Shown here: positions 4,854 through 21,173 of the stretch, in pieces
Layout: each line of letters starts with the position of its first letter
Position numbering within the stretch: position 1 is the stretch's first letter
IMG/VR virus record: IMGVR_UViG_3300031857_001651
Location: 1 to 21,173 of that record
Reading direction: 5' to 3' (one strand)
DNA: 21,173 nucleotides
Source of the DNA: a virus
Notes under the pieces: generated by a model
The model's input: only the letters and a program-made list of their open reading frames with translations
The model's database searches: none
Told to the model about the DNA's origin: nothing
Translations under genes and position numbers: made by a program

Positions 4854-6542
4854 ATGGCTGATACTACCACGACGAACCTTGGACTTACGAAACCGGAAGT
4901 TGGCGCCAGCGCTGATACCTGGGGCACTAAGCTCAACACCGATCTCGATCTTGTCGATGCGGTTTTTAAGGCGGATGGTACGGGCACGAGCGTTGGTCTG
5001 AACGTTGGTTCTGGCAAGGTTCTTACTATCGCCGGCAACGTCTCGGCCAATGGCGCAACTTTGTCGCCTACTGAACTCGGCTACCTCGACGGCGTTACCT
5101 CGTCGATCCAGACACAGCTTAACGGAAAAGAGCCAACGATCACAACGCTTGGTGTTGCTAAAGGCGGCACTGGTGCATCGACGCTTACGGGCTATGTCAA
5201 GGGCAACGGCACTTCTGCGTTTACCGCCTCGTCCACTATCCCGACTAGTGATCTGTCGGGCACCGTTAATCTCGCGACCCAGGTCAGTGGCACGCTTGGC
5301 GTCGCTAACGGCGGTACTGGTACCGCTACGGCCTTCACTGCCGGTTCGGTCGTCTTCGCCGGTGCTTCGGGCGTCTACACGCAGGACAACGCCAACCTGT
5401 TCTGGGACAACAGCAACGACCGTCTGGGTATCGGCACGACTACGCCAGTATGTAAGTTCGATGTTTACGCCGCATCCGGCTACAATGACATTCGGGTCCG
5501 TTCTGGTAGCAACCAGACCTACTTGGCCGCTGACGGCACAAATGCGTATGTCGGAACATACAGCAATATCCCGTTGACGATGTCAACTAACAACACCGAG
5601 CGCATGCGCATCGACGCCAGCGGTAACGTCGGGATCGGGACGAGTTCGCCGGGTTATAAATTGGATGTGCGCGGAGGTACCAGCTCTTTTGAAGGCTCCA
5701 GTGGCGTAGGCGCGGTCCGCATTGCAGGTGCAGGTGGTTCGTGGTTCTGGATCGATAACCCTAGCACTACTGTCCTACGGTTCTCGTCTGGCGCGTCTGC
5801 GGGTACGAACCCAATGACGTTTACTGATGGCGGCAGCTTGGGGATCGGGACGAGTTCGCCGTCGCAAAAGCTGACGCTTCAGGGCGCGCAACTCACTATT
5901 CCTGCCGCTGGCTGGTCAAGCGGCCAAGTCGCGTACAACTATCTCGGCGATACTAACAACGGTATCTCCTCCGCAAACGGCGGGAACACAGATATTTTTG
6001 GATTTAATGGCATCACGTTTAGCTCGACCGGTTACGGCGGCGAAAAGATGCGCATCGACAGCAGCGGCAGCGTCGTGATCGGGGCAACGAGCGCTGCCGG
6101 GGCAAGGTTTAATGTCACTACCGCCAGTGCAGCCGACGTTATCTACGTTGACGCGAATACCGCAGGGGCGGCGGGGACGGCGGTTTATGTTCTGCCAATT
6201 CGCACTGCTGCCACCTTCCGTGGCGGTGTGCGTTGGAACGGTACGAGTGTTGAGTATAACACTACCTCGGACATCCGCCTCAAGGAGAACATCACCGATG
6301 CAGACGATGCTTCGGCCCTAATCGACGCGATCCAAGTCCGTAAGTTTGACTGGAAGGAAACTGGTTTTCATCAGCGCTACGGCTTCGTCGCGCAGGAACT
6401 GGTCGAGGTCGCACCGGAGGCTGTTAGCGCATCAAGCGACCCGGAAGAAATGATGGGCGTAGACTATTCCAAGCTCGTCCCGATGCTCGTTAAGGAACTC
6501 CAATCTCTCCGTGCCCGCGTGGCGCAACTCGAAGGGAAGTAA
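4854..6542 (+). CDS. Tail fibre/spike with C-terminal S74 intramolecular chaperone
   Basis: A 562-residue host-recognition protein. The N-terminus ([23 protein letters not shown]) is the usual virion-attachment type of small phage fibres. Residues ~75-180 carry repeated GVAKGGTG and GVANGGTG motifs common in trimeric fibres. The middle contains GIGTTTP, GIGTSSP and related turns, each followed by a K-L/F-D/T segment, consistent with a repetitive beta shaft. The last ~91 residues are a peptidase S74 (endosialidase chaperone) domain beginning SDIRLKENI. Ser472 and Lys477 match the catalytic Ser/Lys pair at its usual spacing of five. [15 protein letters not shown] and [14 protein letters not shown] are further family motifs, and the C-terminus is a coiled coil. 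The chaperone trimerises the fibre and then cleaves itself off. The ribosome site GAGG overlaps the previous stop. Confidence 0.92.
5631..5861 (+). repeat. Two identical 21-base direct repeats in the fibre gene
   Basis: The 21 bases at 5631-5651 recur exactly at 5841-5861, encoding GIGTSSP plus flanking positions. The starts are exactly 210 bases (70 codons) apart, so they are in frame and could allow in-frame recombination of shaft units. Confidence 0.85.
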
Positions 6543-7372: not shown

Positions 7373-7804
7373 ATGTCCTTTGTCCTAGGCGCGCGTTCCA
7401 AGGAGCGACTGAAGGGCGTACACCCCGATCTGGTCCGTGTCGTCGAGCGTGCTATTCAGCTTACCGAAGTTGATTTTACTGTACTCGAAGGGCTGCGCAC
7501 CGCCGCGCGCCAGCAGCAACTCATGGCCAACGGCGCGACCAAGACCATGAATTCGCGCCACTTGACTGGCCACGCCGTCGATCTGGGTGCCTTGGTGGGA
7601 GGGTCTGTTCGCTGGGACTGGGGTTTGTATCTCAAACTAGCAGAAGCCGTTCGGTCTGCGTCCGTCAGCGAAAACGTCCCCATTCGCTGGGGCGGCACGT
7701 GGAAACTGCTGACCGCCATTCAGGGACCGATCACAGCAAAGGTTCTGAGCCGGTCGTTTCCCGACGGCCCGCATTTTGAGTTGCCCCGCGCAAACTATCC
7801 CTAG
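7373..7804 (+). CDS. Endolysin, M15-type L-alanyl-D-glutamate (VanY/T5-like) peptidase
   Basis: A 143-residue zinc peptidase that cuts the peptide stem of peptidoglycan at the end of infection. The motif SRHLTGHAVD at residues 61-70 gives zinc ligands His63 and Asp70; the third ligand, His134, is in GPHFEL. The seven-residue spacing of the first two and the C-terminal His match the phage T5 endopeptidase group. Supporting features are the N-terminal VLEGLRTAARQQQLMANG and RWGGTW near residue 105. GGAG at 7363-7366 sets the start at ATG 7373. There is no signal peptide or membrane segment, so it needs a holin to reach the wall. The last 74 bases are overlapped by the 3' end of the antisense HNH gene. 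Confidence 0.92.
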   Translation: MSFVLGARSKERLKGVHPDLVRVVERAIQLTEVDFTVLEGLRTAARQQQLMANGATKTMNSRHLTGHAVDLGALVGGSVRWDWGLYLKLAEAVRSASVSENVPIRWGGTWKLLTAIQGPITAKVLSRSFPDGPHFELPRANYP

Positions 7805-8297
7805 CCGCCCGTATCTGCGCAACGGTCCTCCCAATGAGTTTCATCTCTTCAACGGTAAAACGATTGCCGCGCATAATGTTGCAGTCACCGCACGCGGTCT
7901 GCACATTACCTTTGGTGTGAGGTAGGTCGTTATCTATGCGATCCAACCCGCGGTTTTCGGTTGTTGTTCCGCAATAAACGCAAGGCTGTACGATATACGC
8001 ATGGATTTCTTCGGCCGTCAAATCGCAATCATCGATGCGCTGGTACGCTTTACGCAAATACGTAGCCCGGCCGCGTTGCGTTCGGCCCCAGCGCGCCATA
8101 CGAGCTTTACGCAATTCTTTTTGTTCAGGCGTCAACGCACCCCAGCGTTCTTTGCGCCGGTCTCGGCCCTTTTTCCGCGCCCTATGGCATTCCTTACATT
8201 CATATGATAAGCCTAACGGGCGGCTCTTTTCGCGGTGAAAATTTTCTGGTGTTGCTTCCAGCAAACGATCACAACGAAAACATGTGCGGTGTGTCAT
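7731..8297 (-). CDS. HNH endonuclease, probable free-standing homing endonuclease
   Basis: A 188-residue protein on the strand opposite to its neighbours. It has an N-terminal zinc finger (Cys6, Cys9, Cys34, Cys37), a strongly basic linker (RARKKGRDRRKERW, KELRKARMARWGRTQRG) that may bind DNA, and a C-terminal HNH core. The core carries CVYCG (Cys106, Cys109), LDRID at 118-122, GNV at 130-132 and CGDCN (Cys136, Cys139). This is the layout of small phage HNH enzymes, many of them homing endonucleases. The gene occupies the gap between endolysin and the next lysis gene, and its 3' end runs 74 bases into the endolysin gene in antisense. No Shine-Dalgarno site is evident before ATG 8297. It probably inserted into a formerly continuous lysis cassette. 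Confidence 0.88.
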   Translation of the reverse strand: MTHRTCFRCDRLLEATPENFHREKSRPLGLSYECKECHRARKKGRDRRKERWGALTPEQKELRKARMARWGRTQRGRATYLRKAYQRIDDCDLTAEEIHAYIVQPCVYCGTTTENRGLDRIDNDLPHTKGNVQTACGDCNIMRGNRFTVEEMKLIGRTVAQIRAARDSLRGATQNAGRRETTGSEPLL

Positions 8298-8342: not shown

Positions 8343-8495
8343 ATGTTTGCAGGTTACAAAACTTATATCACAGCCGGCGTTGCCGTTCTCACCGCCGTTA
8401 GCGCGTACCTCGTCGGCGATGCCGATCTCATGCAGACCGCCAACCTGGTGTTCACCGCGCTTCTCGCCGCATTTGTGCGTAACGGCGTCAAGTGA
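8343..8495 (+). CDS. Small two-segment membrane protein (holin candidate)
   Basis: A 50-residue protein, start ATG 8343, with a good ribosome site AAGGAG at 8330-8335. It begins MFAGYKTYITAGVAVLTAVSAYLVG, giving a first membrane segment at residues ~7-25. A short loop with DADLMQ follows, then a second segment ~31-45 (ANLVFTALLAAFVRNGVK). Small proteins of this type are widespread in phages and are usually considered holins or membrane lysis proteins. The next gene starts inside its stop (GTGA) and the following genes look like spanins, which supports a lysis role. Which of the three small membrane proteins here is the true holin cannot be decided from sequence. Confidence 0.78.
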   Translation: MFAGYKTYITAGVAVLTAVSAYLVGDADLMQTANLVFTALLAAFVRNGVK

Positions 8496-8713
8496 TCCAG
8501 TTACTCAAGCAACTGTTCGGTTTGCTTCAGGCGGTTGGGCGCCTGTTTGCCGACCGGCAGTTGCTTGACGCCGGAAAGGCGCAGCAGCGCGAGGCCGATC
8601 TACAGGAGGTGATGCGCCGTGAAGAACAAGCCGAACAAGCTGTGGCTACTCCCGATCCTGTTCGCGACGAGCGGTTGCGTTCTAGATTCGACCGCGCCCG
8701 CCGTAGTCAGTGA
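8492..8713 (+). CDS. Putative i-spanin-like (Rz-type) protein
   Basis: A 73-residue protein that starts with GTG overlapping the previous stop (GTGA); a TAA 12 bases upstream in frame limits other starts. Residues 1-25 are hydrophobic but amphipathic (MIQLLKQLFGLLQAVGRLFADRQLLDAG). The rest is a highly charged helix (QREADLQEVMRREEQAEQAV) ending in a basic tail RSRFDRARRSQ. Position and overlap with a lipoprotein gene fit the Rz half of a spanin pair, which links inner and outer membranes for the last lysis step. However, the N-terminus contains Lys, Gln and Arg and is not a convincing membrane anchor, so the call is tentative; it may be a membrane-surface lysis accessory. Confidence 0.6.
   Translation: MIQLLKQLFGLLQAVGRLFADRQLLDAGKAQQREADLQEVMRREEQAEQAVATPDPVRDERLRSRFDRARRSQ
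8604..8609 (+). promoter_or_regulatory. Internal Shine-Dalgarno site for the nested o-spanin gene
   Basis: AGGAGG, a full consensus ribosome site, lies inside the upstream coding region, 9 bases before the GTG at 8619. It settles the start of the nested gene, which begins in another frame. Confidence 0.8.
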
Positions 8714-13182: not shown

Positions 13183-16131
13183 ATGGCACTGGCCCCGCAA
13201 AGCATTGCGACGACTCCGACGCAAGCTGATACCAGCCTTGCGCTTGCGCAAGAGCTTCAGCGTATGCTCGATGCAGGCGCCAGCGTAGACGATCTCCTCA
13301 AGACCGCTGCCGGCAAGGGCGTAACTCTCGACCCCAGCCGCATAAAGCAGATGGTCGATTACGTTGCTTCGGGCCAGAAGGGCGCCAGCTTTGTGCCTGG
13401 CGTTTTCAACGAGCAGCCAACTGCGGCGATCACCGAAGCGCCGTCGCCACTTGAACGGGCGCCGCTTGGTGCTGCAATCCTCGGCGCCGCCGATGTGTTT
13501 GCGGCCGAGCCGTCAATCGGTCTTGATCCAGAGAACCGCAGAGCCATAGAGAACCTCGGCGTTCTGGGCCGGTATCTCTATGCTCCGCTCGGCGACATTG
13601 GCGCTGCCACGTACACGACCGCGCAAGCCGGTCTGATGGGCGCCGCTCGGGGCACGGGTCAACTGCTGGAAAACATCGGCGTGTTGCCGGCGGTAGAGGC
13701 GCTGACTAGCGTCAAGCAGACACCGGAGACATTCGCCGAACAAGCGCTCGGCATCGCCGACTTCGCAGCGATGAAGTATCCGACGCTTGCGATCCCCGAG
13801 TTTCCGGTTCGCACCGCGCCGGCATTGCCGCGCATTGCGGAAGTCGCGGCTGAAGTTACGCCGCCCCCGGCCCGGCGTGTTCGCGCGCCAAAGGCCGAGC
13901 CGACTGTAGCGGTAAACGAACTGCCGACCATGACGCCGGCCGAAGGCAAGGCCGCGCTCGGTAGCATGGAGCAACAGGGCTTGACGCAGCCGCTGCCCAA
14001 GCTGGACGTTAGTGAAAAGGTAGCGAACTTTGCGTCTGACTATCTAAACGCCGGCAACTTGACACGCCCGGCCGATATGCCGTTTTCGGAATTCTTCTAT
14101 CGTCACGTCAAGGCCGGCACTGTCCCCGAAGAACAGTTCGCCGAACTCGTCAAGAAGTACGAGCTTGACGATCAGGATGTGATGGAACTTTTCACTGGCA
14201 CACGCCAGGGTCTCGGCGATGCCGCCCGAACCATGCAGCGTTTCAGCATTGCTAGTCGCTACGTCCCAACCGAAGCGGGTGAACTTGCTAAGCTCGGTGT
14301 CGAGCAGGCAGCAGACCTCTCGTTGTGGAGCCGGCTCACGAACGTATACCGCGGCGCGCTGGTGTCCAACATGGCGACGACCATGCGCAACAACATCTCG
14401 TCGCTGGCCCGTGTTCCAATTGACGCGGTAACGAACCTAGCAGACACCGCAATCAACGCAGTCGCCAATCCGTTCCGCGCCGAAAAGGTTGGCGTCAACC
14501 CGATGGATGCGTTCGCGGTTATCACCGACCGCTTCAACCCGGCGCAGAATAAAAAGTTCTACGAGCAAATCCGCAACATTCAGCCGGGTGTAAACCAGGA
14601 ACTAATGGCCACCTACGCCGCAGACGTGGCGCGGGTAACGAAGAAGGATGCGTTCTCGAAAGCCGAGAAGGCGGTAGACGCTATCAACCTGTTCAACCGT
14701 GTGTCTGAAACGGCCACGCGCAAGGCAATGTTCCCGGTGTTCCTGCGCCGCGAAGCAACGCGCCTCGGCTATAACTTCGACGAACTGGTTGACGCTGAAC
14801 GCCTGAGTGAATTGCCGGAAGAAGCGTATCAGAAAGCGCTTAACAGCACGCTCGACTACACATACTCGGCCCGGCCAAAGCCAAACAGTTTCGCCGATTT
14901 GTTCGTGCGCATGGTTGAAAAAGGCGGTCTCCCCCTAGCGACAGTCATGCCGTTCCCGCGCTTTATGGTCAACGCCATGAAGTTCCAGTTCGACCACAGC
15001 CCCGCCGGGTTCTTCCGTCTGTTGTCGAAAGCCGAGCAAGAGAAGTTCGCGAAAGGCGACGTGTCGGCATTGTCGAAAGCAATGGTCGGCTCGTCGTTGC
15101 TCTACGCCGCCTACGAATTCCGCAACAGCGAGAACGCTGGCGAGAAGTGGTACGAAGCCAAGACCGACAGCGGCAAGACGTTCGATCTTCGACCGTTCTT
15201 CCCGGCCGCGCCGTATCTGCTGGTGGCCGATGTCATTAAGCGGGCACAAGACGGCTCTATCGACCTGGCGTTCCAGACCAAAGACATTCTTCAGGGCTTG
15301 ACCGGCGCGCAGTTCCGCGCCGGCGGTGGCCTCTACGTGGCGGATGAACTTATCCGTGATCTCTCCAGCGCTGGAACGAATACCGAAAAGGCCAAGACCA
15401 TTGCGACGCAGTGGCTCGCTAATCTCGGCTCTGGCTTCCTTGTTCCGTTCCAGCAGTTCAAAGACTTCTACGCGCAGTATAACCCAGAAGAAGCGGTCTA
15501 CCGCGACGCCAAAGACAGCGCCGTTGGTACGCTGGTGCGCTCTATCCCCGGTGCGCAGCGTGCCCTCGGAGTGCCCGAAGCCGAGCTACCGACCCGCGAA
15601 GGCGGCTCGACAACGGTAGACCCGGCGCTGCGTCAGCTTCTCGGTGTTACGATCAAGCAGGAAAAGAATTTCCTTGAAAGCGAGATCGACCGCCTGGGTC
15701 TCACGCCGTATGAGCTTGGACCAAAGACCGGCGACCCGGAGATGGATCGCCTGATTAACCGCGATCTCGGCATCATCGCCGAGCGGGGCGTATTGCCGCT
15801 GATTGAATCAGCGCAGTACAAGCAGCTTGACGATGTGCGTAAGGTGCAGGCTATCCGCGATGTCTACACCCGCGCTCGTGCCGTAGCGGTGCAGAAGTTT
15901 GAAGCAGAGAACCCGGAACTTGCGCTCATCAAGAGCCTCAAGCGCCGCAACCGTACCGAAAAGGTTCTTATTAACCGGGCATTCGAGGAGAAGACCGGCA
16001 AGACTGCGGAAGAGTTTCTGCGCCAGCTTCGTGAAGCGCCGATGGTGCGCACACAAGAACAGTACGACGCTCTCCCGAAGGGTGCGAAGTTCACTGATCC
16101 CGGCGACTATAAAGTGTACGAGAAAAAGTAA
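13183..16131 (+). CDS. Large internal virion / DNA ejection (pilot) protein
   Basis: The largest protein of the window, 982 residues and mostly helical. The first ~260 residues are Ala/Pro-rich with likely flexible segments (VTPPPARRVRAPKAEPTVAVNELP). Residues ~280-740 form a conserved-looking core with YRHVKAGTVPEEQFAELVKKY, ELFTGTRQGLGDAARTMQRFS, RGALVSNMATTMRNNISSLARVP, and PLATVMPFPRFMVNAMKFQFDHSPAGFF. The last third is charged and helical, ending KFTDPGDYKVYEKK. Short hydrophobic stretches near 630-660 could be membrane-active but none is a clear transmembrane segment. I see no lysozyme or transglycosylase motif, unlike T7 gp16. The protein probably forms part of the conduit that carries DNA through the cell envelope. 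Its stop overlaps the next ATG by one base. Confidence 0.75.
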   Translation: MALAPQSIATTPTQADTSLALAQELQRMLDAGASVDDLLKTAAGKGVTLDPSRIKQMVDYVASGQKGASFVPGVFNEQPTAAITEAPSPLERAPLGAAILGAADVFAAEPSIGLDPENRRAIENLGVLGRYLYAPLGDIGAATYTTAQAGLMGAARGTGQLLENIGVLPAVEALTSVKQTPETFAEQALGIADFAAMKYPTLAIPEFPVRTAPALPRIAEVAAEVTPPPARRVRAPKAEPTVAVNELPTMTPAEGKAALGSMEQQGLTQPLPKLDVSEKVANFASDYLNAGNLTRPADMPFSEFFYRHVKAGTVPEEQFAELVKKYELDDQDVMELFTGTRQGLGDAARTMQRFSIASRYVPTEAGELAKLGVEQAADLSLWSRLTNVYRGALVSNMATTMRNNISSLARVPIDAVTNLADTAINAVANPFRAEKVGVNPMDAFAVITDRFNPAQNKKFYEQIRNIQPGVNQELMATYAADVARVTKKDAFSKAEKAVDAINLFNRVSETATRKAMFPVFLRREATRLGYNFDELVDAERLSELPEEAYQKALNSTLDYTYSARPKPNSFADLFVRMVEKGGLPLATVMPFPRFMVNAMKFQFDHSPAGFFRLLSKAEQEKFAKGDVSALSKAMVGSSLLYAAYEFRNSENAGEKWYEAKTDSGKTFDLRPFFPAAPYLLVADVIKRAQDGSIDLAFQTKDILQGLTGAQFRAGGGLYVADELIRDLSSAGTNTEKAKTIATQWLANLGSGFLVPFQQFKDFYAQYNPEEAVYRDAKDSAVGTLVRSIPGAQRALGVPEAELPTREGGSTTVDPALRQLLGVTIKQEKNFLESEIDRLGLTPYELGPKTGDPEMDRLINRDLGIIAERGVLPLIESAQYKQLDDVRKVQAIRDVYTRARAVAVQKFEAENPELALIKSLKRRNRTEKVLINRAFEEKTGKTAEEFLRQLREAPMVRTQEQYDALPKGAKFTDPGDYKVYEKK

Positions 16132-16256
16132 TGGCCAAAATATCTACAGGTGTGACATGGAAGCCACAGCCGAAAGCCAAGCGGCGTAGTAAGCCAGTTG
16201 GTCTTCGCCACCGTAAGAAACTGGGGCCACGTAGTCACTTGCGTACTAAGTTCTAA
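16131..16256 (+). CDS. Very short basic protein (41 residues)
   Basis: The ATG overlaps the stop of the large internal protein by one base (TAATG). It encodes MAKISTGVTWKPQPKAKRRS followed by more Lys/Arg-rich sequence ending SHLRTKF. About 15 of 41 residues are Lys, Arg or His and none is acidic, so the peptide must bind nucleic acid or an acidic partner. Comparable tiny basic proteins opening with MAK-STGVTWKP are found in other podoviruses at the end of the structural operon, to my recollection and without known function. The overlap and the absence of any other explanation for the gap make it very likely real. It could be a minor packaged DNA-condensing protein. Confidence 0.75.
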   Translation: MAKISTGVTWKPQPKAKRRSKPVGLRHRKKLGPRSHLRTKF

Positions 16257-16274
16257 GCGTCTACTATTCACCCC

Positions 16275-16826
16275 ATGAAAATTATGGGCGTAGACCCCGG
16301 CGCTTCTGGCGCTTTAGTTATTCTCGACACGGACGACCGTTCGATTGTCGTGATCGACATGCCCACTACTAAGGTTAAGCGAGGGCCACGAACCGTCAAT
16401 CAGGTTGACGCCGTGGCCCTTTCTCATGCGCTGCAGCCTTACGCTGGTGCTTGCACCGCAGTCGTCGAGAAAGTTCACTCGATGCCCGGCCAGGGCGTTG
16501 CATCCACTTTCAGTTTTGGCCGCGCAGCCGGCGTTCTCGAAGGCGTTCTAGCCGCGCTCGATATTCCTTTCACCTTGATCCCGCCGCAGACGTGGACTAA
16601 AGCTATGCGATTGTTTGGCGGAAAGGACGGAAGCCGAGCAAGAGCGCAAGAACTTTTCCCCGATCAAGCCCATCTCTTTGCGAGGAAGAAGGACGACGGC
16701 CGGGCGGATGCTGCGCTGATTGCTTGCTACGCCGCAGAGAGGCTGGAGAATGGATCACCTATTCGAGTATCAGAAGACGGGGGCAAAGTTCCTCGCAGAA
16801 AACCCCGCAGCCTTCCTGGCCGATGA
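16275..16826 (+). CDS. RuvC-like Holliday junction resolvase
   Basis: A 183-residue nuclease of the RuvC/RNase H fold. The opening GVDPGASGALVIL carries the first catalytic Asp7; AVVEKVHSMPGQG holds Glu65; KKDDGRADAALIACYAAE gives the C-terminal acidic pair Asp141 and Asp145. These four acidic residues in this order are the mark of the family. FSFGRAAGVLEGVLAALDIPF is the usual helix between them and PPQTWTKAM follows as in bacterial and phage relatives. It resolves branched DNA before packaging and may help degrade host DNA. No Shine-Dalgarno site precedes ATG 16275; ATG 16284 (MGVDP) is a possible alternative start. The 3' 77 bases overlap the helicase gene. Confidence 0.88.
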   Translation: MKIMGVDPGASGALVILDTDDRSIVVIDMPTTKVKRGPRTVNQVDAVALSHALQPYAGACTAVVEKVHSMPGQGVASTFSFGRAAGVLEGVLAALDIPFTLIPPQTWTKAMRLFGGKDGSRARAQELFPDQAHLFARKKDDGRADAALIACYAAERLENGSPIRVSEDGGKVPRRKPRSLPGR

Positions 16827-18033
16827 GCAGGGGCTGGGCAAGACAATCCAAGTCATCGCCGCGTGTGATGATCTCGGCTTGAAGAAAGTTGCCGTAGTCT
16901 GCCCGGCCATCGCCAAGATCAACTGGCGCCGCGAGTTCGAACGCTGGGGCAAAGTCGAACGCGAAGTTCTCGTCTATAGTTACGACAAACTAACGCAATC
17001 GAAGGAGGCGCGTAATGAGATCGCCAAACTGGAGCCAGACGTTATTGTCCTCGACGAAGCGCACTATCTTAAGAATCGTCAAGCGAAGCGCACAAAGTAT
17101 CTATATGGTCAGTACTGTCGTGGCGACGGTCTTGTTCGTTTTAGCGACCGCGTTTGGCTTCTTAGTGGCACTCCCATTCCTAATGATGTCTCTGACTTCT
17201 GGACTCATCTTAAAGCGATATGGAACTATCCGCTAAACTTCGTAGACTATACTCTATATTTCTGTAAGACCTGGAACGGGCAGTTCGGCATTAAGGTTTT
17301 GGGCAACAAAGCTGAACGAATGGGCGAGTTCAAGTCCATCCTTCAGTCGATCATGCTCCGCCGCAAAGCTGACAAAGTTCTGACCGAGTTGCCGCCGCTC
17401 TGGTGGCAGGACACTGTGGTCGAGGTCAGCGGCTGGGATGACATGGCCCACATCGAAAGCCCGGAAGAGCGCCAAGCCGTCGAGCTTATCCTGCAAAGCG
17501 CCATCACGCAAGAGGATGTATCTGGCAAACTCGATTCGATTGTGTCTAGCATGGCGTCGATGCGGCGCTTGACGGCTCTGGCCAAGGCGAAGCCAGTCGC
17601 TGCGCAGTTGTCGGCCGAGTTGAAGGATCACGCCTACGACAAGGTTGTGGTGTTCGCCTACCACCGCGCTGCGCTCGAAGCATTGCGCGAAGAACTGGTG
17701 GAGTTTAATCCAGCTTACGTGGTGGGCGGTATCGGCACAGCCGAACGCCAAGCCGAGATTGACAAGTTCCAGACTGACCCGTCGTGCCGCGTCTTCATCG
17801 GCCAGATCACGGCGTGTTCGACCGCGATTACGCTTACAGCCGCAAACCAGGTTGTTTTCGTGGAGATGGACTGGGTGCCGGCTACGAATGCTCAGGCTTC
17901 GAAGCGATGCCACCGCATCGGCCAGTCTAAGCCAGTTATTGTGCGGTCGTTTGGCCTGGCAAATTCCTGCGACGAAATCGTTGCACGGGCACTTGCTAAG
18001 AAAGCACAGATGATCTCTGAGGTGCTAGATTAA
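16750..18033 (+). CDS. SNF2-family DNA helicase/translocase
   Basis: A 427-residue superfamily-2 helicase of SNF2 type. From ATG 16750: MDHLFEYQKTGAKFLAENP (Q-motif region); DEQGLGKT at residues 25-32 (Walker A); DEAH at 102-105 followed by YLKN (motif II); LLSGTPIPN around 137-145 (motif III); QASKRCHRIGQ at 382-392 (motif VI). The second RecA domain also shows VVVFAYHRAALEALREEL and TAANQVVFVEMDW. ATG 16750 is chosen over an earlier in-frame start at 16720 because AGAGG at 16738-16742 has good spacing and the family start begins near the Q motif. It likely remodels replication forks or assists recombination with the adjacent resolvase. It is the last + strand gene before the convergent junction. 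Confidence 0.9.
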   Translation: MDHLFEYQKTGAKFLAENPAAFLADEQGLGKTIQVIAACDDLGLKKVAVVCPAIAKINWRREFERWGKVEREVLVYSYDKLTQSKEARNEIAKLEPDVIVLDEAHYLKNRQAKRTKYLYGQYCRGDGLVRFSDRVWLLSGTPIPNDVSDFWTHLKAIWNYPLNFVDYTLYFCKTWNGQFGIKVLGNKAERMGEFKSILQSIMLRRKADKVLTELPPLWWQDTVVEVSGWDDMAHIESPEERQAVELILQSAITQEDVSGKLDSIVSSMASMRRLTALAKAKPVAAQLSAELKDHAYDKVVVFAYHRAALEALREELVEFNPAYVVGGIGTAERQAEIDKFQTDPSCRVFIGQITACSTAITLTAANQVVFVEMDWVPATNAQASKRCHRIGQSKPVIVRSFGLANSCDEIVARALAKKAQMISEVLD

Positions 18034-18034
18034 A

Positions 18035-18104
18035 ATCGAGACGGCCTGTCGGATCGATTGACAACGGTGCTGACCGCCCTCTCCAACAAGTGTGCCGTCT
18101 CGAT
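18035..18104. other. Potential three-way-junction RNA element after the helicase gene
   Basis: Perfect 11-base inverted repeat: ATCGAGACGGC at 18035-18045 and GCCGTCTCGAT at 18094-18104. Inside are two further small stems: TGTCG (18047-18051) with TGACA (18059-18063), including one G-U pair, and CGGT (18065-18068) with ACCG (18073-18076). Together they would fold as a three-way junction with an unpaired 17-base stretch at 18077-18093. It begins two bases after the helicase stop. As RNA from the + strand it would cap the 3' end of the helicase message; on the - strand it would lie downstream of the terminator. Function unknown. The outer stem is certain, the inner stems are short. Confidence 0.6.
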
Positions 18105-18137
18105 AAAAAAGCCGGGGGCGACTTCCGAACCCCCGGC
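18105..18137 (-). terminator. Intrinsic terminator of the - strand replication operon
   Basis: An 8-bp GC-rich stem, GCCGGGGG (18111-18118) with CCCCCGGC (18130-18137), 11-base loop. Read on the - strand it is followed immediately by six T (18110-18105), so it ends transcripts coming from the ssDNA-binding protein gene, whose stop is at 18173. On the + strand the hairpin lacks a U-tract, so any effect on the helicase transcript would be weaker. Confidence 0.85.
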
Positions 18138-18142
18138 CCCAG

Positions 18143-18167
18143 TTTGTACTGCTTTATAGCAGACAAG
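18143..18167. other. Second hairpin between the - strand stop and the terminator
   Basis: CTGCT (18149-18153) pairs with AGCAG (18158-18162) over a TTAT loop. The stem continues as TTGT (18144-18147) with ACAA (18163-18166) past a bulged A at 18148, giving about 9 bp. No T-run follows on either strand, so it is more likely a 3' RNA stabiliser than a terminator. Confidence 0.5.
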
Positions 18168-18172
18168 TCAAA

Positions 18173-18733
18173 TCACAAGAGATCATCCAAGTCCGAAATG
18201 TCCGCGGACGGACGAGCTTCAGCCGAGAACTCATCAGCGGCCGAGAGGCGACCGTCCATACGTGGACCGTCATCCGTCTTCTGAATATTGCCCAGCGAGA
18301 ACGCCACGCCGTTGTTGCCATTCACGCTGTAAGCGTAGGCGCGCAGCGAAGCGCGGACCTTGGCGCCAGGGTAGATTTCCTTCGGATCAGAGATCGCAGC
18401 CGGCTTACCGTCGGGACCAGCGAACTTCGACACAACCTGCGGCGCCTGCTTCGACTTAACGTTCATGAAGACCGCACCTTCAGGATAGCCCTTCTCGACA
18501 CCGTCTTCGCGGAACGGCATACGAATCTTTCCGGACTGAAGCAGAGCTTTGAACTTGTCGCCCCACTTTTCTTTGCCAACGGCAAGGGCTGCGGCTTTGA
18601 GTTCGGTGATGTCGGTCCCGTCGGGAAACACCAGAGAGCAGGAGTACACCGGCTCTGTCGCTCCCGGCGGTGTCTGCGGCTCGAAGATGTGCGGATAGCT
18701 GATAACGGCTTCGGGTGTAATAACTTTGGTCAT
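18173..18733 (-). CDS. Single-stranded DNA-binding protein, DUF2815 family
   Basis: A 186-residue SSB-like protein. MTKVITPEAVISYPHIFEPQ, then YSCSLVFPDGTDITELKAA, KWGDKF and ADDEFS-like acidic ending are family features. A large internal block carries VFMNVKSKQAPQVV and GAKVRASLRAYAYSVNGNNGVAFSLGNIQK, the beta-barrel core. The C-terminus is acidic and flexible, ending ISDLDDLL; such acidic tips recruit other replication proteins, as in bacterial SSB. It binds and protects ssDNA during replication and recombination. It is the last gene of the - strand operon, 15 bases after the nuclease gene, followed by the terminator. Confidence 0.85.
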   Translation of the reverse strand: MTKVITPEAVISYPHIFEPQTPPGATEPVYSCSLVFPDGTDITELKAAALAVGKEKWGDKFKALLQSGKIRMPFREDGVEKGYPEGAVFMNVKSKQAPQVVSKFAGPDGKPAAISDPKEIYPGAKVRASLRAYAYSVNGNNGVAFSLGNIQKTDDGPRMDGRLSAADEFSAEARPSADISDLDDLL

Positions 18734-18748
18734 AACGTAGTCTCTCTT

Positions 18749-19906
18749 TTACTCAGTCACGTCAAATTCGTCAGCCGCAAGGAGCGCGGCTGGCGGGCGG
18801 TTGTCGCTATCAGGGACCATCGAGACCCCAGTTGATACCGACATAACGAGCGTGCCGGGGAGGTTCTTCTTCCCAACAACGCGCTCGATCTGCGAAGGCG
18901 ACTTCAACTTCTTTTCGTAGATGTCGTCGTCTTCGAGACCTTCCGTCGTCGCCCATGCAAGCAGTTCCTCTTCGTTTTTCCAACGACGAGTAGGGCGCTT
19001 TTCCACAAGTTTAAAGCCGGGCAGCGTCTGCCCAGTCTCAAGCATAGTGTGGGCATGGCGACGGATGGACTTGATCCACTCTTCAAGCAGCGGAATCTTG
19101 TCCATGTAACTTGCGACTTCGGCTGGCGACAGGTCTTCGATGCTGCGCGTCACGCCGAACTCATCTTGCGCGACAGCCAGCGCGTTGCTGCGCAGCGCCG
19201 AGCAGGTGCCCGATGCCTTACAGAACTTGCAGTGGTCGCCGGCAATCAGCGGCGCATCAGGCTTCATGGCCGCGTGCGCTGCGTCAATCAGGTCAGTGCC
19301 GAAGTCGAGGATTTCGTCCTTCGTATAGCTGTGCGTCCGGATCGAACCGAGAACGTGCGGAGCGCGAGGCTGGACAATGGCGGTGTGGATCGCGTTGATC
19401 GGGGCGCGGTCGCCGATCTTCAGCACAGCGCCCAGTGCGTAGTACTTAAGTTGCGGATTGTCTTCCGCGTCTACGGCTACGCCCTGGCCGTGCTTGTAGT
19501 CGATCACCCAGAGGTTGCCGCTCGTCTTGCCATAGATCGTACAGTCGCTGGTGCCGAACATTGGCATCGGCGGGTCTAGCGCCTCAAGACTGAAGCGCTG
19601 CTCCAGCTTCAGCAGCGCAGGCGCTTCTTCTTCCGCGATAGAACGCACGTAGTCTACGTAGATACGCACGGCGGAAGCCATGTTGTCATCGACTGGGTGA
19701 TCGTTGAACGTGCGGCCGAGCATCGTGAACACGTCGGTGATATCATTCTCTAGACAATACTCGCCCAGTTCGTGCGCCGCTGTGCCAAGTTCCGCGAACG
19801 GACTAGACGTGTCCGGGAACTTTGCTTCGGCGTTGAGACTACCGGGGCAGGCCATACGCCGCTTGGCGTTGGACGCGCCGAACGAGGCGTGTGCGATCTC
19901 ACCCAT
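18749..19906 (-). CDS. RecB-like PD-(D/E)XK nuclease, DUF2800, with iron-staple cysteines
   Basis: A 385-residue nuclease. The RecB-type motifs are GTAAHELGEYC with His45, FGTSDCTIYG with Asp121, VIDYKHGQG with Asp136 and Lys138, and PQLKYYALGA (Q-x-x-x-Y). Cys20 near the N-terminus together with Cys226, Cys229 and Cys235 (CKFCKASGTC) is the pattern that holds a 4Fe-4S cluster in Cas4 and AddB nucleases, the 'iron staple'. It probably resects DNA ends or processes recombination intermediates and would work with the adjacent SSB. GGAG eight bases before ATG 19906 serves as ribosome site. Its start overlaps the previous stop by 8 bases, so translation is coupled to the DnaA-like gene. Confidence 0.85.
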   Translation of the reverse strand: MGEIAHASFGASNAKRRMACPGSLNAEAKFPDTSSPFAELGTAAHELGEYCLENDITDVFTMLGRTFNDHPVDDNMASAVRIYVDYVRSIAEEEAPALLKLEQRFSLEALDPPMPMFGTSDCTIYGKTSGNLWVIDYKHGQGVAVDAEDNPQLKYYALGAVLKIGDRAPINAIHTAIVQPRAPHVLGSIRTHSYTKDEILDFGTDLIDAAHAAMKPDAPLIAGDHCKFCKASGTCSALRSNALAVAQDEFGVTRSIEDLSPAEVASYMDKIPLLEEWIKSIRRHAHTMLETGQTLPGFKLVEKRPTRRWKNEEELLAWATTEGLEDDDIYEKKLKSPSQIERVVGKKNLPGTLVMSVSTGVSMVPDSDNRPPAALLAADEFDVTE

Positions 19907-20483
19907 CTTCTAACTCCTCGCTCTGCGGCTGAAACTCAATCAGCCGGTTAACCTTGTCCGCGTAATCCGCGTCACGCTCCATCATGTACCCCGCCCGCTC
20001 GACGCCGTACATAACCGTGGAGTGGTCACGATTCATGATGCGACCGATATGTGGATAAGACAACCCTCGTTCACGGAATGCCCTAAACAATGCAAACCGC
20101 GCCGGCATTAGAAAGTTATACCGATAGGGTCCGGTGATGTCGCGCTTATGTACGTGGAACAACCGACTAGCTTCGTCGATAACCTCTGCGATTAACACGG
20201 ATTTCCTTTCCTGTGGGTTCATAATGTCTTGGTATTTCGTCACGTAAGGGGCGCCTAGCAGCCAATGCGGATTTACTCCGAGAACTTTGGCCAGTGTCCA
20301 CAGCCCGGCGATGGTGGGGTTTGTGCCCTGGCCATTACGAAGACGGCGAATGTGCGCGGCAGAATACTCCGACACTTTCGCCACCTCGTGTGAGGCCAGG
20401 CCGCTTGTGTCGATGGCTTCCCGAATGCGGTCGCGGACTAGAGCCTGCGCCGCATCTAGGTCAAAGATGTCTTGGTGTGTCAT
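19899..20483 (-). CDS. XRE-type HTH fused to DnaA domain IV, DNA-binding protein
   Basis: A 194-residue protein from ATG 20483; an in-frame TTG at 20492 is possible. Residues ~13-77 form a Cro/C1-type helix-turn-helix with ASHEVAKVSEYSAAHIRRLRNGQGTNPTIAGLWTLAKVLG. Residues ~97-167 match domain IV of bacterial DnaA: EVIDEASRLFHVHKRDITG, a basic loop, PARFALFRAFRERGLSYPHIGRIM and the signature NRDHSTVMYG, in which Asp153, His154 and Ser155 correspond to the residues that read the DnaA box. There is no AAA+ ATPase domain, so it cannot act alone as an initiator. It could recognise DnaA-box-like sites in the phage origin, compete with host DnaA, or regulate early genes. The ATG overlaps the upstream stop (ATGA). 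Both domains are clear by motif; their joint function is unknown. Confidence 0.85.
   Translation of the reverse strand: MTHQDIFDLDAAQALVRDRIREAIDTSGLASHEVAKVSEYSAAHIRRLRNGQGTNPTIAGLWTLAKVLGVNPHWLLGAPYVTKYQDIMNPQERKSVLIAEVIDEASRLFHVHKRDITGPYRYNFLMPARFALFRAFRERGLSYPHIGRIMNRDHSTVMYGVERAGYMMERDADYADKVNRLIEFQPQSEELEDG
20050..20058 (-). promoter_or_regulatory. Consensus DnaA box within the XRE-DnaA(IV) gene
   Basis: TTATCCACA on the - strand, a perfect match to the bacterial DnaA box, lies in the codons for Ser-Tyr-Pro-His of the DnaA domain itself. It could be a target of host DnaA or of the gene's own product, or a coincidence of coding sequence: one exact nonamer is expected about 0.16 times by chance in this window. 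Confidence 0.35.
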
Positions 20484-20608
20484 CGCATCCAATCAGTATC
20501 ATCTAGGTCTTCGACGCCGCGAATGATCGCCTCTCGAACACAGTGGACGGCATAGAAAAACACGGTCATACCTATACCTACGCAAGCGGCAATGAGTAGC
20601 TCAATCAT
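20480..20608 (-). CDS. 42-residue single-span membrane protein
   Basis: Starts with ATG 20608 preceded by AGGGAAGAGG and encodes MIELLIAACVGIGMTVFFYA, one membrane segment of ~20 residues. A basic patch (VREAIIRG) follows, then an acidic end EDLDDTDWMR. It overlaps the upstream 54-codon gene by 8 bases (ATGATTGA) and the XRE-DnaA gene by 4 (ATGA), so it belongs to a tightly coupled chain. Its function is unknown; it may anchor or inhibit a host process at the membrane. The two cysteines (Cys9, Cys23) flank the membrane segment. No family is recognised. Confidence 0.75.
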   Translation of the reverse strand: MIELLIAACVGIGMTVFFYAVHCVREAIIRGVEDLDDTDWMR

Positions 20609-20765
20609 CTTCCTCTTCCCTCTTTAGTGATATACGAATTTCATATTCGGCCCCGTTCCACTCAAGTGGAAACCGGGCAAAACATTCGGGCATGAACAAT
20701 CGCAGTTTATCGGCATCGTCGAGTATGCGCTTGCCCAAGTAGTGGATCAATTCCTCTTCGGTCAA
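20601..20765 (-). CDS. 54-residue acidic protein with a TTG start
   Basis: The TTG at 20765 overlaps the upstream stop (TTGA) and has GAGGAG eight bases before it; a stop 15 bases upstream in frame excludes a longer version. The protein begins MTEEELIHYLGKRILDDADKL and ends EYEIRISLKREEEDD. An N-terminal helix, the middle MPECFARFPLEW and a C-terminal strand plus acidic tail suggest a small folded domain. Acidic tails of this kind are typical of DNA mimics or inhibitors, but that is only a suggestion; no family is recognised. Confidence 0.7.
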   Translation of the reverse strand: MTEEELIHYLGKRILDDADKLRLFMPECFARFPLEWNGAEYEIRISLKREEEDD

Positions 20766-20845
20766 AACCTCAACTCCTCATCATCCCAATCGTAAACGTC
20801 CCAACCGAAGTTGGTCCATATCCAGTGGCGCAGTGCGGGGGTCAT
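20762..20845 (-). CDS. 27-residue Trp-rich mini-protein
   Basis: ATG 20845 is preceded by AGGAG (20857-20853) at an ideal spacing of 7 bases; the ribosome site overlaps the stop of the coiled-coil gene. The peptide is MTPALRHWIWTNFGWDVYDW followed by DDEELRF: four Trp in 27 residues and an acidic C-terminus. Its stop overlaps the next start (TTGA). The start signals are excellent for such a short frame, so it is either a real mini-protein or a translational relay leading to the 54-codon gene. Confidence 0.62.
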   Translation of the reverse strand: MTPALRHWIWTNFGWDVYDWDDEELRF

Positions 20846-20855
20846 GGTTTGGCTC

Positions 20856-21173
20856 CTAGTCCTGTCCAACGGCTGCGACATACTTGGCGCGAAACTCATC
20901 TGCCTGCGCCTTATACATTCGAGCCAGTTGATTGTTGGCCTTTGCGTTTTCGGTCAACCGCTCAACCTCCGCGCTCAGGGCCGTGATGCGGTCGGCGGCT
21001 TGCTCCATACTCTTGAGCGCCGCTTCAAACCTACGTAGCCTTCGCCCCTGCCGTTCGGGCGTATCGGTTTTGCGGGTGCCGAATCGAAGGTGCGCAATCT
21101 CGTCGGCCACGACTTTGGCGGCCTGTTCCAACTCCCCGTCATCCCCGGTAGCGCGAGGGACAAGGTGGTGGCG
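20856..21173 (-). CDS. Coiled-coil protein, 5' part beyond the window (partial)
   Basis: The frame is open to the window edge, so the gene begins outside; a TTG at 21131 is only an internal start candidate. The ~105 visible residues show EQAAKVVADEIAHLRFGTRKTDTPERQGRRLRRFEAALK, then a strong heptad region (MEQAADRITALSAEVERLTENAKANNQLARMYKAQADEFRAKYV) and the end AAVGQD. The basic middle and the helical C-terminus suggest an oligomeric DNA-associated or structural helper of the early region. The family is not recognised. The TAG stop is within the ribosome site of the next gene. Confidence 0.65.
   Translation of the reverse strand, partial: RHHLVPRATGDDGELEQAAKVVADEIAHLRFGTRKTDTPERQGRRLRRFEAALKSMEQAADRITALSAEVERLTENAKANNQLARMYKAQADEFRAKYVAAVGQD

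Follow-up and report, generated by a model that had tools for sequence, protein, structure and literature searches.

T4-type phages reportedly carry promoter-early stem-loops (PeSLs), which are said to be mobile regulatory cassettes. Elements of the MITE/REP kind are short and palindromic, have terminal inverted repeats and are present in many copies in a genome. PeSLs are reported (PMC4503421) to join a terminator to an early promoter and to be dense in regions of shuffling. Homing endonuclease genes, according to passages of another study, lie near essential genes and at the boundaries of phage exchange (Barth 2023, PMC10448857). The top-ranked titles and abstract openings of the open-access literature contain no account of the junction described here or of structured alternatives such as those that occupy it.

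The window that we analyzed is the complete record, 21,173 bases long, of an uncultured virus, and the junction that we followed up spans 18034-18172 (139 nt). A helicase gene on the plus strand and a gene for a single-stranded DNA-binding protein (SSB) on the minus strand converge on it. The helicase gene product matches phrog_62 (3.9e-91) and has SNF2-rel_dom and Helicase_C domains; the SSB product matches phrog_112 and Enc34_ssDNA-bd. The features of the region are as follows.

16720-18033, plus strand: SNF2-like helicase gene, left neighbor (listed open reading frame, TTG start, stop TAA at 18031-18033)
18031-18035: TAAAA, left copy of a possible 5-bp target duplication (weak, low-complexity; comparison with the empty site of relative L006)
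18035-18104, minus strand: element A, an exchangeable structured cassette of 70 nt (repeat, folding and relatives)
18035-18045: left arm of A, ATCGAGACGGC in plus-strand letters (repeat search)
18065-18076, minus strand: apical hairpin of A, CGGT GCTG ACCG in plus-strand letters (folding)
18094-18104: right arm of A, GCCGTCTCGAT in plus-strand letters (repeat search)
18104-18108: TAAAA, right copy of the possible 5-bp target duplication (weak; comparison with the empty site of L006)
18105-18110, minus strand: U-tract of hairpin T, six U (sequence)
18108-18140, minus strand: hairpin T, terminator-like, of the SSB operon (12 pairs, loop UCGGAAGUC)
18142-18169: H3, the third and small hairpin, lying between T and the stop codon of the SSB gene (folding and relatives)
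18173-18733, minus strand: SSB gene, Gp2.5-like/Enc34 family, right neighbor

Two further genes of the window are recorded here as observations. The minus-strand gene at 19899-20492 encodes a protein with HTH_3 and a DnaA-type C-terminal helix-turn-helix (Bac_DnaA_C), which is perhaps a replication-initiator-like regulator by its domains. An Endonuclease VII-like gene (phrog_1035; 7731-8297, minus strand) lies amid the plus-strand late region and is possibly another homing insert.

Comparison with described systems

Among relatives of the window, the place taken by A is left empty or is taken instead by a second structured cassette, B, or by a long insert. PeSLs are the nearest known idea to these junction cassettes, being likewise small intergenic stem-loop cassettes tied to module exchange between related phages. 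The junction cassettes differ from them in two respects. No sigma-70-like promoter was detected with them (0 sites on both strands of 15000-21173 against 2.7 expected by chance, in a scan that covers the sigma-70-like type only), and A and B are each found at one place only, whereas there are reportedly several PeSLs per genome. The link between endonuclease genes and phage exchange in the passages of Barth 2023 (PMC10448857) is matched by two junction inserts with HNH_3 and AP2 domains; however, those passages include no structured non-coding alternative occupant, and the words "terminator," "promoter," "noncoding" and "non-coding" are absent from the main text.

Like an intrinsic terminator, T in the window has a GC-rich stem and six U on the minus strand. 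Unlike one, its loop is strongly conserved under a highly variable stem and it is adjoined by exchangeable cassettes, of which A encloses 48 nt between its arms and is followed by a short U tail. A and B share with MITE/REP-like elements their terminal inverted repeats, a length of 58-70 bp and a patchy presence, but multiple copies of them were not found in the records searched and a target duplication is uncertain.

Hairpin T is conserved among relatives

Relatives were gathered by protein scans with the SSB and the helicase, three of the four scans being confined to the best 80 matches. This gave at least 317 sources, with a helicase match in 303, an SSB match as well in 290 and both genes complete enough in 263. 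These 263 sources reduce to 81 distinct helicase/SSB pairs (rows), in which 68 different junction strings occur. Several of the loci represent overlapping parts of a single contig.

T contains a perfect 8-bp GC repeat (18111-18118/18130-18137) within 12 minus-strand pairs, GU included, and its surroundings (18105-18145) fold at -22.4 kcal/mol. The stem is GC-rich and is directly followed on the minus strand by TTTTTT in the window; a simple terminator scan, restricted to loops of 3-8, did not list it. The loop motif is present in 81/81 rows, as GACTTC in 70, CCCAAC in 9 and CTTCCTA in 2 (plus-strand letters), and a stricter second pattern missed six of the rows so counted. We compared 40 distinct T hairpins. 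Their cores comprise 400 cells, of which 395 pair; shuffling the arms whole leaves 251 paired on average and 290 at most. This control was needed because the finder chooses the best-pairing stem and so inflates the percentage paired; in L009 it took another hairpin. Two-sided changes occur at 10/10 core positions. Wobbles in the core are GU on the minus strand 26 times and on the plus strand 4 times. The tails of all 40 hairpins hold 3.7 (minus) versus 3.2 (plus) T of 8, with 18 minus tails incomplete, and the 22 hairpins with a full minus side hold 4.4 versus 2.9. The covariation, the bias in GU wobbles, the U-tract and the tail counts together make T a conserved terminator-like hairpin, which by these features most likely serves the SSB operon as its terminator and is perhaps bidirectional in some relatives.

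The T loop (18119-18129) is itself strongly conserved, reading GGAAGUC on the minus strand in most relatives, over a stem that is highly variable; a second loop type, GUUGGG on the minus strand, characterizes another clade. A conserved loop over a variable stem looks like a recognized hairpin tip. No full T loop was found elsewhere among hairpins of at least 8 pairs in nine further records and the window. Near matches were seen in one record (G009), namely GGAAGTC over a stem-loop border at 23871-23904 and CCCAAC in the loop of 6149-6178.

H3 folds around 18142-18169 and is a second exchanged piece. Its stem is GCGTCA/TGACGC in L002 and GCGTAG/CTACGC in L006, so that these close relatives differ by two two-sided changes. 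The H3 of the window is the same as that of L004. The claim of the original prediction that three structures are packed into 139 bases is borne out insofar as an 11-bp repeat, the adjoining hairpin T and the small H3 are present, but not as to the three-way-junction shape that it gave to the first of them.

Element A is predicted to fold as a long hairpin on the minus strand

A is bounded by the perfect 11-bp inverted repeat that had been predicted (18035-18045/18094-18104), which has 48 nt between its arms and begins one base past the helicase stop. When the 139-nt gap was dinucleotide-shuffled 20,000 times, such a repeat (spacer 3-60) arose in 17 cases, in agreement with the rough figure of one in a thousand given beforehand. 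Over the whole window, 2 perfect 11-bp repeats were seen against 0.55 expected (mean of 60 shuffles; maximum, 3), so the repeat count taken alone says little. The other one, at 8505-8568, lies within a small open reading frame (8492-8713) and has a very stable fold.

The whole of 18034-18172 folds at -68.2 kcal/mol on the minus strand (z -6.55) versus -56.1 on the plus strand (z -4.75), and 0/200 shuffles folded as well on either strand. For A with its flanks, z is -6.46 on the minus strand (81 nt) and -3.58 on the plus strand (77 nt). A itself reaches -36.4 kcal/mol on the minus strand versus -26.8 on the plus strand, a difference that is partly due to GU pairs, which any fold gains.

A second copy of A is found in IMGVR_UViG_3300042554_000451 (L082) and differs from that of the window at 18049, 18062 and 18077. 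On the minus strand, both copies form a single long hairpin (-36.4 kcal/mol in the window and -33.8 in L082) of which all pairs are intact. The plus-strand three-way junction with two inner stems, as first proposed, did not hold up. It has an energy of -25.0 kcal/mol versus -26.8 for the best plus-strand fold, and its first inner stem has a pair probability of 0.30-0.35 on the plus strand and 0.0 on the minus strand. In L082, T18049C creates a C.A mismatch that breaks this stem, and its probability falls to 0.0; the same difference also disrupts one pair of the window's best plus-strand fold. We therefore reject the three-way junction as the main fold of A, as it is minor and loses one pair in L082. 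The original prediction had seen in the structure a possible protector of the late mRNA's 3' end, a small RNA or a protein-binding site. As far as folding can tell, the computed energies and the retained pairs favor one long hairpin on the minus strand, which is that of the SSB operon, over a three-way junction that would end the helicase mRNA.

The retained minus-strand pairs lend support short of proof, since there are two sequences and no two-sided change among their three differences. For the same reason, covariation, the check suggested at the outset, can neither support nor refute A, although for T it gave the clear excess over the shuffled arms reported above. A was also considered as a standard intrinsic terminator and rejected on account of its 48 nt between arms and its tails, UUUUAA on the minus strand and AAAAAA on the plus strand. 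This agrees with the earlier view that there is more to the junction than a single ordinary terminator and that the repeat itself is no standard one.

It might be argued that the repeat of A arose by chance in a gap free of constraint, given that 0.55 such repeats are expected per window and that only two copies of A are known, with no two-sided change between them. We give this little credence, since few shuffles of the gap itself hold such a repeat, the minus-strand fold withstands all three differences between the copies, and the unrelated but structured B, similar in size and in closing stem, sits in the same slot. A is a real structured element with a bias to the minus strand, yet it is local and exchangeable, and its interest is in the slot that it occupies rather than in a three-way junction.

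The original prediction also suggested a search for the element elsewhere in the genome, and no second copy was found. Run against 24 sources, a model of A recovered the known places alone, with further weak matches at E 3.1 and 5, and against 40 sources it gave nothing up to E 1. Patterns for the middle and the right-hand part of A each matched only the L082 contig, in a search from which the window's own record may be excluded. Many of the records searched for further copies are fragments.

A scan of Rfam 15 with 17900-18300 of the window up to E 10 gave one chance match, within the SSB gene. Eight relatives scanned up to E 5 gave four matches far below gathering scores, none of them on A or B; two of the four were to PVT1_3 (E 3.2 and 4.1), at chance level, and run from the SSB gene into the first arm of T. 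Membership of A, B or T in a known Rfam family was rejected, as the matches are at chance level only. No tRNA or tmRNA identity was found.

The reference phages contain no DNA match to the helicase-SSB stretch and match A only at E 8 and B only at E 6, and their protein relatives are all less than 60% identical. A scan of the genome collection with the helicase profile found no relative.

An insertion slot between the helicase stop and T

The stretch from the helicase stop to T behaves as a slot. Of the 81 rows, 53 have no insert there and 19 a long one; 7 rows hold B, the window holds A, and one row holds A followed by B, where "none" denotes a junction of <115 nt without A or B and "HNH" a junction of >450 nt. 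A is absent from 79/81 rows. Two of the 19 long inserts were tested, and both match HNH_3 and AP2 above the Pfam cut-off; a similar-looking minus-strand reading frame is visible in 18 of the 19. Three HNH inserts (L004, L029 and L040) have on the minus strand a Shine-Dalgarno-like AGGAG beside a CUGCU...AGCAG stem right before the start codon, as if the arrangement held down their translation.

Among the phages with a full junction, the four closest differ in their slots. The window has A, L002 has A and B, L004 has an HNH insert and L006 is empty, while their helicases are 95.0-98.9% and their SSBs 93.5-99.5% identical as proteins. On the helicase tree, the state of the slot requires at least 20 changes (shuffled mean, 25.9; minimum, 4) and is thus clustered but far from the minimum; HNH alone requires 14 changes, 13 of them forced by well-supported branches, and B alone 4, all 4 forced. 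These counts can be inflated by recombination within the helicase gene, as in L042. This locus is the same as L034 from the last 200 bases of the helicase gene through the entire junction and over the compared part of the SSB region, but not in the upstream part of the helicase, which is plain recombination. The turnover of the slot involves recombination in at least one such case and probably homing too.

A long insert is never found together with A or B (0/81 rows). This raises the possibility that the cassettes act as plugs against homing, in that they split an HNH recognition site at the empty junction and thereby confer immunity. Use of one slot by A, B and the long HNH-class inserts would agree with this, as would the frequency of the latter (19/81). 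However, any insert would suffice for such a purpose, which leaves the strong fold of the cassettes unexplained, and most rows are empty despite the presence of endonucleases. We consider immunity by plugging very unlikely.

Element B is an unrelated structured cassette in the same slot

B has a length of about 60 nt and no evident sequence in common with A. Its minus-strand fold is a three-way junction, on which 98.9% of the cells of its four full variants pair. Of its 23 pairs, 17 are invariant, four vary on one side, one varies on both sides and one is lost in L082; with four rows, the pairing is not separable from chance in a shuffle control (255/500). A pattern for the B core has exact matches in 14 IMG/VR records, every one at this junction, and no exact match in a genome collection of 84,980 species. 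A B model found none elsewhere in 24 sources and one match at E 0.53 among 29 records; the model is less sensitive than it should be because one of its helices is shifted by one column. The identity of B as a self-cleaving ribozyme or a riboswitch was rejected, since Rfam gave nothing on it in the relatives, which were scanned up to E 5.

The B of L002 is identical to those of six other rows at 51-54 of 60 positions, while the helicase DNA is 69.5-71.9% and the SSB DNA 73.2-75.1% identical (the truncated helicase gene of L042 was left out). B is thus better conserved than its coding neighbors, which indicates that it is held by selection or has moved more recently than the genes. Homology between the B of L082 and that of the other lineage ends at the base of the outer stem, and the flanks differ between L082 and L034. 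The boundary of B is therefore its structure. Its tail is not U-rich in most copies, and A has the tail UUUUAA; hence, neither is a classical terminator.

These observations bear on two other readings of the cassettes. One takes A and B to be very small inverted-repeat elements of a non-autonomous mobile or passenger kind, MITE- or REP-like, which sit in a permissive slot and have no role in the phage. In its favor, the ends of both match terminal inverted repeats, of 10-11 bp in A and of 9-11 bp in B, and both are patchily distributed. Compared with the empty site of L006, A can be taken for a 68-bp element flanked by duplicated TAAAA. The neighboring sequence of B is not the same in L082 as in L034, and the homology stops at the base of its stem. 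Yet no second copy of A or B was found elsewhere in the sources searched, the B core is confined to this junction in its 14 IMG/VR records and missing from the 84,980-species collection, and the TAAAA duplication sits in an A-run, with no clean duplication for B. We regard a passenger origin without function as unlikely, though it deserves to be taken seriously.

The other reading is that A, and B with it, is a stand-alone minus-strand small RNA acting in trans. The stable minus-strand folds of both and the conservation of B above that of the coding neighbors would be consistent with such an RNA, but there is no sigma-70-like promoter site in 15000-21173, no Rfam match (to A up to E 10 in the window junction and to A or B up to E 5 in relatives), and both elements are dispensable in close relatives. 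A small RNA acting in trans is, in our view, highly doubtful.

Discussion

The junction between the helicase and SSB genes has a conserved hairpin, T, and beside it a slot with structured occupants that turns over among relatives, and its folds are biased to the minus strand. The reading that we prefer, held tentatively and with somewhat less than even confidence, is that T ends the SSB operon and that A is an exchangeable cassette in the slot, perhaps a second barrier to read-through, while the slot also takes B or HNH genes.

On this preferred reading, T would be an intrinsic-terminator-like hairpin that is read on the minus strand and closes the SSB/exonuclease operon. Just past its U-tract and up to the helicase stop would lie the insertion slot, swapped among related phages. 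A would be one occupant, a discrete inverted-repeat cassette of 68-70 nt, transcribed only when RNA polymerase reads through T, and its RNA would then form one long, stable minus-strand hairpin. Its most likely role would be that of a second barrier after T, limiting read-through into the 3' end of the converging operon. The slot could alternatively be filled by the unrelated structured cassette B or by an HNH-type endonuclease gene, with exchange presumably driven by homologous recombination and homing. The transcription of A, its barrier function, its mode of movement and the early or late status of the operons are what we infer from the arrangement of the junction. A barrier to read-through would have to be dispensable, because 53/81 rows have no insert at all, and the many empty slots, the weak U tail of A and the mostly missing one of B speak against an essential terminator role.

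A broader and rather doubtful suggestion is that A and B belong to an undescribed kind of cassette, comprising unrelated structured RNAs of 58-70 nt that move as units delimited by their outer stems and share a slot past a terminator with homing endonucleases. Such cassettes might provide homing immunity or serve as minus-strand modules.

Our results illustrate how relatives can correct a strand and a shape that were assumed from one sequence. In the 81 sequences with distinct helicase/SSB pairs, the terminator-like hairpin is fixed, and the slot next to it turns over more quickly than the surrounding genes, taking either endonuclease genes of a selfish type or small elements with structure. 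Should the cassettes block homing or read-through, the insulation of transcription in these phages would be tied to an arms race with homing endonucleases.
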